DNA from: Actinomycetospora sp. TBRC 11914
GTDB taxonomy: Bacteria > Actinomycetota > Actinomycetes > Mycobacteriales > Pseudonocardiaceae
Assembly: GCF_012933465.1 (NCBI RefSeq)
Contig: NZ_JABBND010000003.1
Span: forward strand, 62,001-126,000
Reading direction: 5' to 3'
DNA: 64,000 nucleotides
Shown: piece after piece, positions 9,687 through 11,757 of the stretch
Layout: each line of letters starts with the position of its first letter
Position numbering within the stretch: position 1 is the first letter of the stretch
Program-made: the position numbers and the translations under genes
Notes under the pieces: model-generated
Seen by the model: the letters and a program-made list of their open reading frames with translations, nothing else
Told to the model about the DNA's origin: nothing
The model's database searches: none

Positions 9687-9878
9687 GCCGTCGGCCTCGC
9701 CGCCCTCGGGAGCCGCGACGACACAGCGCCGACGGGGTTGACCGCGCGGACGGCGTAGCGACGTCGTCGCGCGGCGCAGGTGCCGCCCGCCCTGGGACCA
9801 ACTCGGTGCCGGTGGCGCATGCGGCGCGGACGCGCTCGGGCAGCCGTGGCTCCGCGACCGCGACGATCGAGGAGAGCC

Positions 9879-11330
9879 ATGTCCGAGGACACCATCCAGG
9901 AGCAGTCCGTCTGGGAGCCGGAGGGCGACCAGGAGGGCCGGCAGGACGGGGACGGCCGGCCGAGCAGCGCCGAGGACCAGGAGCCGGATGCGGGTGGCCA
10001 CGACTCGAGCCCGGACGTCTACCTCCACGTGCCGACCCTCGAGGTCGACGAGATCGACCTCGAGGTGGAGGACCTGCGCGCGCACGTCTCGCTGCAGGCC
10101 GAGGTGCTCGACCTGGTGAAGCTGAACGTCGGCGTCGACGCCGCCCTCGGCCGCGTCAAGCTCGGCATCCGCGGGGTCAACGCGCAGGCCACGCTCAAGG
10201 TCCGGCTCGACGAGGTGGCGGGGATCGTCGGCCGGGTGCTGGACACGATCGACCGCAACCCGCAGATCCTCGAGCAGGTGACCCGAGGGCTCGGACAGGC
10301 CGCGCAGGAGGTGGGCTCGGGCGCGGGCCAGGCCGTCGAGCAGCTCGGCGGCGGGGCGGGCGACGCCGTCTCGGAGGTGGGTTCCGGGGCCGGGACCGCG
10401 GCGGGCGAGCTGGGACGTGGGGCCGCGGACGCGGTGTCCGACGTCGGCGAGGGCGCGGGCGAGGCGGTCTCCGACGTGGGGGAAGGGGCCGGCGAGACGG
10501 TCTCGGACGTCGGCGACACGGCGAGGGGGCTGACCGGCTCGGAGACGGGCGCCGGCCGGTCGTCGCAGGGTGACACCGAGGAGCAGGGCCCGGAGGTCGA
10601 CGACTCCCACGCCGACCAGGGCGCCCTGCCGACGGTGGATGCGGGCGAGGCCGACGCCGAGGGTGCGGACGAGGACCTGGACGCGGACCTGGACGCGGAG
10701 GGCTCGGACCTGGACGCGGAGGACGCGGACCTGGACGCGGAGGCGGACGCGGTCGCCGGGTCCGGCTCCGAGGACGAGCTCGACACCGCTGCGGAGGCCG
10801 ACGACTCGGACGTGGACGACACCGACGTCGATGACGCGGATGAGACCGAGGTGGAGGACGTCGACGACGATGTCGAGTCCGGCGCCGAGGACGCCGAGGA
10901 CCTGGAGGACCTGGAGGACACGGGGAACGCCGAGTCCGAGGACGCCGACGCCGACGCCGAGATCGAGGAGACGGAGGACGCGGACGCCGAGCCCGACGCC
11001 GACGAGACGGCATCCGACGAGCCCGAGCCCGACGACCCGTCGCCGTCCGATGCCGCCGAGGTCTCCGACACGCCCGCGCCCGAGGAGGAGGCCGCACCGG
11101 TCCGGAGGGCGAGCGCACGCCGCCGCCCCCAGGAGCGGGAGTCCCAGGACGCGCCGCGGGAGCGGCAGGGCCGTCGACCGGCCCGGCAGGAGACCCGCGA
11201 GACGCCAACCCGGCGCACCGGACGGCAGGAGACGCCGGAGCGGCGGACGACCGGCCGCCGACGCAGCGACCAGGACGAGGCCCCGGCCCGCCCGCGCCGC
11301 GCCCGCCGCAGCGGCACCGCCGACCGATGA
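9879..11330 (+). CDS. hypothetical protein: conserved head, seven hendecad repeats, acidic then basic disordered tail
   Basis: 483 residues, function not recognised. Residues 46-135 form a compact, hydrophobic-patterned domain (YLHVPTLEVDEIDLEVEDLR onward, ending DRNPQILEQV) that looks conserved. Residues 144-220 are seven consecutive 11-residue repeats of the form EVGSGAGxAVx, a hendecad pattern expected to make an amphipathic helix, as in LEA-type proteins and apolipoproteins. Residues about 230-405 are extremely rich in Asp/Glu/Ala (DLDAE units). Residues 408-483 are Arg-rich (RRTGRQETPERR). There is no signal peptide or transmembrane helix. ATG 9879 has GAGGAG 4-9 nt upstream. Its stop overlaps the ATG of the next small frame (ATGA). 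The charge segregation suggests a nucleic-acid- or membrane-associated, possibly condensate-forming stress protein; that is inference only. Confidence 0.8.
   Translation: MSEDTIQEQSVWEPEGDQEGRQDGDGRPSSAEDQEPDAGGHDSSPDVYLHVPTLEVDEIDLEVEDLRAHVSLQAEVLDLVKLNVGVDAALGRVKLGIRGVNAQATLKVRLDEVAGIVGRVLDTIDRNPQILEQVTRGLGQAAQEVGSGAGQAVEQLGGGAGDAVSEVGSGAGTAAGELGRGAADAVSDVGEGAGEAVSDVGEGAGETVSDVGDTARGLTGSETGAGRSSQGDTEEQGPEVDDSHADQGALPTVDAGEADAEGADEDLDADLDAEGSDLDAEDADLDAEADAVAGSGSEDELDTAAEADDSDVDDTDVDDADETEVEDVDDDVESGAEDAEDLEDLEDTGNAESEDADADAEIEETEDADAEPDADETASDEPEPDDPSPSDAAEVSDTPAPEEEAAPVRRASARRRPQERESQDAPRERQGRRPARQETRETPTRRTGRQETPERRTTGRRRSDQDEAPARPRRARRSGTADR
10308..10538 (+). repeat. seven in-frame 33-bp repeats encoding hendecads
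   Basis: Codons 144-220 of the preceding gene repeat with a period of 33 bp, each unit reading like DVGEGAGEAVS. Units 5 and 6 are nearly identical, suggesting recent duplication; the others have drifted. Confidence 0.75.
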
Positions 11331-11533
11331 GCTGGGTGTCGTTCCACAGCACCGTCGCCGCGGAGGAGATGGCGTTCGGTGAGGTCGAGGGCGACGAGAT
11401 CGTCTTCCGGGGCGACGGCGCGGAGCGGTCGTGGTCGGGCACCCGTCGTCGGAACCTCCCGGCGGCGGTCACCCCGCACACGACCCACCACGACGTCCGG
11501 ATCGACCTCGCGGTCGAGGGCGAGCTGGGGTGA
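11327..11533 (+). CDS. small hypothetical protein overlapping the previous stop
   Basis: 68-residue frame starting MSWVSFHSTVAAEEMAFG. Its ATG overlaps the TGA of the hendecad-protein gene (ATGA), an arrangement typical of translational coupling, and this is the main support. I recognise no family. The composition (charged, with no hydrophobic core beyond the first 20 residues) could equally be chance reading of downstream DNA. Confidence 0.35.
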   Translation: MSWVSFHSTVAAEEMAFGEVEGDEIVFRGDGAERSWSGTRRRNLPAAVTPHTTHHDVRIDLAVEGELG

Positions 11534-11548
11534 CCGCCCCACGAGCGT

Positions 11549-11718
11549 CGAGTGGGCTCCCATGGCTGCCACCGCAGCCCTCAGGGTCCACTCGGTCGAC
11601 CGCCCCTTGCCGCCACCACGCCGAGTGGGCCCCCACGGCTGCCACCGCAGCCCTCAGGGTCCACTCGGTCGGCCCCCGGGCCGCCACCGCCCGCGAGTGA
11701 ACCTCCACGATCCACTCG
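11549..11718. repeat. three palindromic CGAGTGG...CCACTCG units, two nearly identical
   Basis: Units at 11549-11594 and 11622-11667 are 46 bp each, differ at only two positions and share the core GGCTGCCACCGCAGCCCTCA. A shorter, diverged unit lies at 11694-11718. Spacing is 73 and 72 bp. Each begins CGAGTG and ends TCCACTCG, so each can fold as a stem-loop. They lie between the small frame and the convergent HhH-GPD gene and may terminate transcription or be REP-like elements. Confidence 0.85.
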
Positions 11719-11757
11719 GCGGAACCCCGGCCGCTGACCCGACCGGCCCCGAGCGCC

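Follow-up and report, generated by a model that had tools for sequence, protein, structure and literature searches.

A hendecad-repeat protein and a conserved small partner form a two-gene module in Actinomycetospora and other bacteria

What is a protein composed of a conserved head, a run of 11-residue repeats, a long acidic block and an arginine-rich end, and does the short reading frame overlapping its stop codon encode a partner? These questions are raised by a locus within a 64,000-nt stretch of Actinomycetospora sp. TBRC 11914 (NZ_JABBND010000003.1), called the window below; coordinates refer to the window unless another locus is named. The large open reading frame (ORF) is called the scaffold gene and the short one the small gene. 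Together they form a conserved two-gene module; no description of this family was found in the literature searched, which is no proof that none exists. What looked like an odd single ORF is thus part of a module whose head domain and small partner are both undescribed. The best single explanation, to which we give a probability of roughly 37%, is that the scaffold is an amphipathic coat or spacer on a hydrophobic surface, working with a beta-rich partner. This is under even odds, and two readings considered below, a protectant of the late embryogenesis abundant (LEA) type and a coiled coil, are close rivals.

The scaffold ORF lies on the plus strand (9879-11330, 483 aa) and starts with ATG. 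An alternative in-frame GTG is found upstream, at 9780; the ATG was preferred because the nearest relative also begins with MSEDT. The features of the module, with the evidence used, are:

9869..9876, plus strand: likely ribosome-binding site of the scaffold gene, GAGGAGAG (sequence)
9879..11330, plus strand: scaffold gene, 483 aa, with acidic N-terminus, conserved head, hendecads, acidic block and Arg-rich end
10011..10292, plus strand: conserved head, aa 45-138 (35-sequence alignment, AlphaFold2, dN/dS against one relative)
10314..10544, plus strand: seven gap-free 11-residue units, aa 146-222, the last degenerate (lag-11 identity, helical moment, dN/dS)
10533..11078, plus strand: acidic low-complexity block, aa 219-400 (composition, dN/dS against one relative)
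11079..11330, plus strand: Arg-rich C-terminal end and stop, aa 401-483 (composition)
11327..11533, plus strand: small partner gene, 68 aa (conserved neighbour family, co-occurrence, three predicted strands)

The initial annotation had proposed that the coupled 68-residue frame could be a partner, and the comparison with other genomes bears this out. The ATG of the small gene lies in an ATGA motif, overlapping the scaffold stop by 4 bp. Members of its family (45 sequences) share a conserved stretch of about 65 residues whose C-terminal part resembles ..NLP..V....Y.D..V.Y. Scored with a profile built from members of the very same loci, the family was detected downstream of the head, on the same strand, in 59 of the 66 loci with enough sequence; four other loci did not enter this count. 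The small gene mostly lies within about 400 nt of the scaffold gene, and in six Rubrobacter-type loci it follows another gene. In Streptomyces misionensis (L041, 5785-6672), an in-frame fusion joins the head and repeats to the C-terminal portion of the partner. Seven testable loci had no downstream partner (L013, L071, L074, L076, L077, L078 and L079). Among these, L013 is a second Actinomycetospora cinnamomea copy followed by what reads by eye as a transposase-like remnant, and L071 offers just 299 nt of downstream sequence.

Co-occurrence was also observed between whole genomes. Among 396 genomes sampled evenly across the phylum, the small family was present in 16, all of them within the 24 carriers of the head; the other eight carriers gave no match. 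These lists, like the gvpA list used below, were matched by entry, the three sample draws being assumed identical. In two genomes (G137 and G299) the partner is on a different contig from the head. The small frame is thus a genuine conserved family that co-occurs with the head. It can escape annotation: in Streptomyces sp. WAC00288 the DNA of the small gene is present with no annotated feature, in a gene table (PLSDB) that is itself incomplete.

The tripartite layout described in the initial annotation, with hendecads after the head, then an acidic run and an Arg-rich tail, is real. The seven perfect-period repeats stand as seven gap-free 11-mers, six of which match a fixed residue-class pattern; the seventh is degenerate. 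Over residues 129-225, lag-11 identity was 0.488, and none of 2000 composition shuffles matched it at any lag from 5 to 25. The hydrophobic moment of the 77 repeat residues was maximal at 98.4 degrees, the value for an 11/3 helix being 98.2, and at 98.18 degrees none of 2000 shuffles equalled the hendecad value. On the corresponding helix, one side is mostly Gly, Ala, Val and Leu, and the opposite side is acidic and polar. Glycine occupies hendecad positions 1, 3 and 5 in 7, 6 and 5 of the seven units, respectively, and positions 4, 7, 8 and 11, mostly Ala, Val or Leu, give an a-d-e-h pattern. Further on, residues 219-400 contain 80 Asp or Glu and a single Lys or Arg (182 residues), followed by 26 Lys or Arg and 15 Asp or Glu in residues 401-483 (83 residues).

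Selection was estimated from nonsynonymous (dN) and synonymous (dS) substitution rates in one pair, the window and its nearest relative (L002). The head (dN 0.036, dS 0.281) and the repeats (dN 0.070, dS 0.598) are under purifying selection in this pair, and the acidic block evolves almost freely (dN 0.636, dS 0.806). For the basic end, dN was 0.265 and dS 0.756. For the small protein, dN was 0.174 and dS 0.280 over 65 codons, which taken alone indicates mild constraint.

The head was found in 69 loci in one scan of genome contigs, belonging to Actinomycetospora, Saccharopolyspora, Saccharomonospora, Prauserella, Streptomyces, Rubrobacteraceae, Asanoa and metagenome-assembled genomes. Four of 72,556 plasmid records also carry it (two from Deinococcus, one from Nonomuraea and one from Streptomyces), so that the head spans Actinomycetota and Deinococcus; of these four, three carry the label hypothetical protein and the fourth has no feature at the head. 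No head was detected among 50,697 phage records. Within the genus, 11 of 18 Actinomycetospora genomes are carriers; the 23 genomes from elsewhere in the family or order that were searched alongside all lack the head. The 24 carriers in the phylum sample include 20 from one family, which appears to be that of Rubrobacter marinus because the entries for R. marinus (G434) and G275 match at the same coordinates.

The initial annotation had held that, should orthologues lack the repeats and charge blocks, the tail would be neutral low-complexity drift. Repeats are widely kept: among 70 rows (the 69 loci and the window), 62 have at least three pattern-fitting hendecads, and three of the other eight rows end at a contig edge. 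The number of units in these 62 rows ranges from 3 to 28, the largest being found in R. marinus, and none of the counts was reached by any of 50 shuffles. The charge blocks are more variable. Among 67 complete proteins, the window included and the start codons of relatives being picked mechanically, 52 have a basic end. A 60-aa stretch with a net charge of -15 or lower is present in 23, Rubrobacter-type proteins included, and only six have a net charge of -20 or lower over 60 aa followed by a basic stretch. These six are the proteins from the window, Actinomycetospora L014 and A. cinnamomea L021, two from Prauserella and one from Saccharomonospora. Rubrobacter-type proteins have a different C-terminal region in place of the charged tail, and eight such loci lack the basic end.

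Although the acidic block is weakly constrained in the one pair, the acid-then-basic arrangement is rare in a genome sample and recurs in proteins of the gas-vesicle (gvp) cluster of the host genome. This cluster, on contig C1 and not on the scaffold contig (C23), encodes GvpG, GvpO, GvpJ, GvpA-type proteins and an SRPBCC protein according to Pfam, GvpF-, GvpL- and GvpK-like proteins recognized by eye, and a 354-aa protein. GvpY/GvpZ of S. coelicolor, names used in PMC5839063, may be the counterparts of the 354-aa protein and the SRPBCC protein. Three of the nine cluster proteins examined, GvpJ, SRPBCC and the 354-aa protein, end in an acid-then-basic tail. As a control, all stop-to-stop ORFs of at least 100 aa were scored, since a crude ORF caller had missed two gvp-cluster genes; the same caller took the antisense frame of the scaffold gene in several loci. 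In the gvp region, 4 of 107 ORFs showed the arrangement, one of which is not a gvp gene. It was also seen in 1 of 341 ORFs of the window, namely the scaffold, and in 2 of 2114 background ORFs, both at the weakest threshold and drawn from 400 kb of contig C1 alone; the surroundings of two solitary gvpA genes gave 0 of 125. Thus, in the host genome the tail is not mere drift.

The SRPBCC domain of the gvp cluster provides a second link. It is single-copy in the host at high identity (the second match reaches 31%), and a gene of this type, 60-64% identical to the host copy, is found no more than about 1.2 kb from the head domain in nine loci from Saccharopolyspora, Prauserella, Saccharomonospora and Asanoa. 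It is divergent and upstream of the head in eight of them and convergent and downstream in Asanoa; in L027 and L075 one called ORF separates the two. Six Streptomyces loci with weaker matches (31-38% identity) were left out of the nine. No gvpA match was found in seven of the nine SRPBCC-linked genomes, which may mean that some of the gvp toolkit works in another structure or in a stress function. Disruption of gvp clusters in Streptomyces leaves buoyancy unchanged, according to the portion of PMC5839063 that concerns it. The module offers a handle on why many actinomycetes retain gvp clusters.

A domain search and a structure prediction of head and repeats, both proposed in the initial annotation, were run. 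The head, although conserved, belongs to no Pfam or NCBIfam family at cut-off, and the window scaffold gave weak matches only: the best was the Senescence domain (E 0.029, 14.7 bits against a cut-off of 24.6), and pneumo_PspA (E 0.072) was also far under its cut-off. Nothing was found for the small protein in Pfam or NCBIfam, nor for a relative of it in NCBIfam, and no relation between the small protein and the head was detected. Searches by sequence for relatives among solved structures gave no acceptable match (best E 0.088).

AlphaFold2 placed two strands (3-32 and 36-64) and helices from residue 66 in the head-and-repeats model (model numbering), so that the head is predicted to be an amphipathic beta hairpin followed by a helix. 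Its predicted local distance difference test score (pLDDT) was about 69-90, by tens, and that of the repeats mostly below 50, in a monomer model; surface-induced helices would be expected to look so. For the small protein, three strands were predicted, two of them of 15 residues (mean pLDDT 83.6). A 30-residue hairpin that stands alone and is apolar on one face hints at an oligomer or hetero-complex. Fold searches gave no reliable match for either protein: the best E values of Foldseek against the PDB were 0.18 and 1.8, and VIA-align gave a best Z of 4.2 for each, the beta part of the head being barely covered and the viral library left out. The long-hairpin pore stems that these searches brought up were set aside, as the resemblance is the hairpin alone and no family can be named. 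An anti-phage defence role was likewise dropped, with no PADLOC match.

These results can be brought together as follows. The overlapping genes would encode a conserved two-protein scaffold in which the head, a long amphipathic beta hairpin and helix, contacts the small beta-rich partner and with it makes up the unit of assembly, probably oligomeric. The hendecads would constitute an 11/3-type amphipathic helix, one side mostly Gly, Ala, Val and Leu, that has little structure when free and becomes ordered on a hydrophobic surface or when copies pack side by side. The acid-then-Arg tail would protrude as a fast-evolving charged brush. In this way, and possibly when water is short, the scaffold may coat or space a membrane or an inclusion on the model of perilipin 4, apolipoproteins, phasins or GvpC.

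The likeness to perilipin 4 and the apolipoproteins lies in gap-free 11-mers that fit an 11/3 helix, a weak apolar face of mostly small residues, and low-confidence, likely disordered structure in isolation; as a working definition of perilipin-like, a gap-free 11-mer repeat with one apolar face describes the window scaffold. The perilipin 4 helix is described as unfolded in solution in a part of PMC5889406, and lateral packing of such helices on a surface is proposed in PMC8064757. One giant Rubrobacter-type relative (L067, 24 pattern-fitting units) exceeds the Pfam Apolipoprotein (PF01442) cut-off, with 100.3 against 90 bits, and that of Phasin_2 (PF09361), with 31.4 against 24.9 bits. L072 (59.2 bits) and L039 (45 bits) fall below the Apolipoprotein cut-off, and a lipoprotein model gives L067 92 bits, under its cut-off of 100. 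We regard the matches of L067 as likeness and not membership, because such models respond to amphipathic repeats generally. Phasins also resemble the scaffold in their amphipathic Ala-rich repeats. Unlike the perilipin 4 and apolipoprotein helices, the scaffold is bacterial, acidic instead of slightly basic, built of far fewer units in the window copy, and equipped with a different head and a partner.

Several observations weigh against a surface coat. The window scaffold matches no lipid-binding Pfam family, including Apolipoprotein A1/A4/E (PF01442; no match at E<=1) and Phasin (PF09361), and overall confidence in its model is low (mean pLDDT 63.6, predicted template modelling score 0.30). 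The repeat stretch has a net charge of -12 (residues 131-218). According to a part of PMC5889406, making the perilipin 4 helix net negative abolished droplet binding, which extra hydrophobicity rescued, and 66 residues of the helix stayed cytosolic; the 77 repeat residues of the window are close to this limit. Caution is thus needed before a short acidic helix is assumed to bind droplets unaided. The two Deinococcus homologues show, by eye, a signal-peptide-like start and no 11-mer run, so that these need not reside on an inclusion in the cytosol, and the small partner was not detected in their vicinity. The highest 15-residue hydropathy was 1.11 among 64 actinobacterial N-terminal stretches and 1.98 in D. 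taeanensis, a difference indicating that location probably differs among lineages. The gas-vesicle link is also incomplete: GvpO of the host cluster misses the acid-then-basic threshold, the full tail is present in just two of the nine neighbouring SRPBCC proteins (its acidic part in six), and gvpA is absent at E<=1e-5 from 21 of the 24 carriers in the phylum sample, 20 of the 24 being from one family.

Nor does any single inclusion type explain all carriers. PhaC_N is present in the host genome and absent from 6 of 14 carrier genome entries, two of which look like one genome; WS/DGAT is absent from 8 of 22 carriers. A role at polyhydroxyalkanoate granules had been suggested by thiolase-type and reductase-type genes upstream of the R. 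marinus copy (by eye). It was rejected on account of the absences of PhaC_N, in which the system differs from phasins, and of the distance of about 90-100 kb to the PhaC_N matches of R. marinus. Triacylglycerol and wax-ester droplets were set aside, WS/DGAT being absent from all seven tested genomes of the Rubrobacter-type family.

Among the other explanations, a water-stress protectant of the LEA type fares best, and we regard it as possible though rather doubtful. Its disordered hydrophilic repeats would become helical on drying and protect membranes or proteins, with no dedicated inclusion. Membrane association under stress, also raised in the initial annotation, is still a rival candidate. 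LEA group proteins have 11-mer repeats, and the amphipathic 11-mers, likely disorder and charge of the scaffold are LEA-like; its best weak Pfam match is the Senescence domain, far under the cut-off. Deinococcus and Rubrobacter groups resist drying and radiation; the head is carried on plasmids by Deinococcus deserti and by D. taeanensis (coastal dune soil), and by the 20 genomes of the family that appears to include R. marinus. Other signs come from Rubrobacter-type loci, with a PspA/IM30 gene about 5 kb upstream in L067 (other genes lie between) and CsbD-like and PRC-barrel-like genes read by eye. Against this, many carriers are ordinary Streptomyces, and a strongly conserved head with a coupled partner exceeds what a protectant needs. 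The window protein also matches no LEA family at E<=1 in Pfam, where LEA group 3, the 11-mer family, is PF02987. WHy/LEA5C proteins do occur in Deinococcus, according to a part of PMC5570939; they too share repeats and likely disorder with the scaffold and differ from it by the head and the partner.

A hendecad coiled coil, forming a straight multi-stranded stalk through the a-d-e-h positions and serving as a filament or spacer with no lipid contact, is unlikely. The Ala, Val and Leu residues at positions 4, 7, 8 and 11 and the variation from 3 to 28 units among the 62 rows would suit it. However, the Gly-rich positions 1, 3 and 5 are unfavourable, and AlphaFold2 gave no confident coil, in a monomer model only.

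We consider it improbable that the scaffold is a gas-vesicle accessory protein which, like GvpC, coats the vesicles or aids their assembly. In its favour are the tails of three of the nine host gvp-cluster proteins, the SRPBCC neighbour in other genera, and gvpA in 23 of 32 chosen carriers, a set picked from known carriers that gives no background rate. Yet the gene and the cluster are on separate contigs, and all 18 Actinomycetospora genomes have gvpA-type genes, including the seven without the head. Carriers without gvpA, both in the phylum sample and among the SRPBCC-linked genomes, rule out an obligatory gas-vesicle role. A pattern in the head (AEVLDL...VDA...GVEA) had suggested a GvpA homologue. 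This was rejected: the window scaffold does not match GvpA/J (PF00741) at E<=1, and hhalign gave the head probabilities of 2.5% and 3.1%, with a first GvpA alignment in which the L091 row was in the wrong frame and a second one without L091, L089 and L097. The scaffold differs from the gvp system in its head and in often occurring without gvpA; the module has parts in common with gas vesicles but does not need them. Equally improbable is a more specific version, in which the head and its partner would co-polymerise through their long amphipathic strands into a shell or ribbon, gas-vesicle-like but GvpA-independent, with the hendecads as outer coat and with SRPBCC and acid-then-Arg tails as assembly parts common to gas vesicles.

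A charge-driven condensate or a DNA or polyphosphate binder, as raised in the initial annotation from the long acidic block and the Arg-rich end, is very unlikely given that the strong acidic block is found in just 6 of 67 proteins and evolves almost freely in one pair, that the basic end is missing in the eight Rubrobacter-type loci, and that no nucleic-acid-binding family was found for the window proteins in Pfam or NCBIfam, nor any supporting domain or context.

Some further observations concern the gas-vesicle genes. The 354-aa protein upstream of the gvp SRPBCC gene seemed by eye to contain hendecads, but 3167 of 5000 shuffles equalled them. Ahead of its GvpO domain, GvpO of the cluster (L155, 8778-10022, minus strand) has a long N-terminal extension in which acidic and Arg-rich modules alternate. 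Outside the cluster, the host genome has two solitary GvpA-type genes, L156 4536-4994 on contig C13 and L157 6115-6561 on contig C45, the latter about 0.5 kb downstream of a ParA-like ORF read by eye. Among the 15 Actinomycetospora genomes at least 90% complete, the nine carriers of the head have 4-5 PF00741 matches; five of the six without it have three, and the sixth (G015) has four. This difference may reflect clades only.

The neighbourhood of the module also varies. In the window, a methylisocitrate-lyase-type gene (TIGR02317; 8778-9686, plus strand) and an HhH-GPD DNA repair gene (TIGR03252; 11758-12342, minus strand) flank it, and relatives of both also flank the L014 copy. In Rubrobacter-type loci L064, L067, L069, L070, L072 and L081, additional helical proteins are encoded around the module. 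Three of them, from L067 and L069, were tested and match Pfam E3_binding: one falls below the cut-off and is truncated by the end of the locus, and another has three such stretches. The others were read by eye. L074, L076 and L079 encode head proteins with an E3_binding-like C-terminus (a Pfam match for L074), followed by a gene of about 110-130 residues and a gene read by eye as glutamate-synthase-like. Finally, a 59-nt direct repeat lies just 3' of the small gene (11546-11604 and 11619-11677, 92% identical, 73-nt spacing). The 31-nt core of this repeat has no additional copy in the window at three or fewer mismatches, and a shorter, weaker third copy of the 59-nt repeat is found near 11706-11730.

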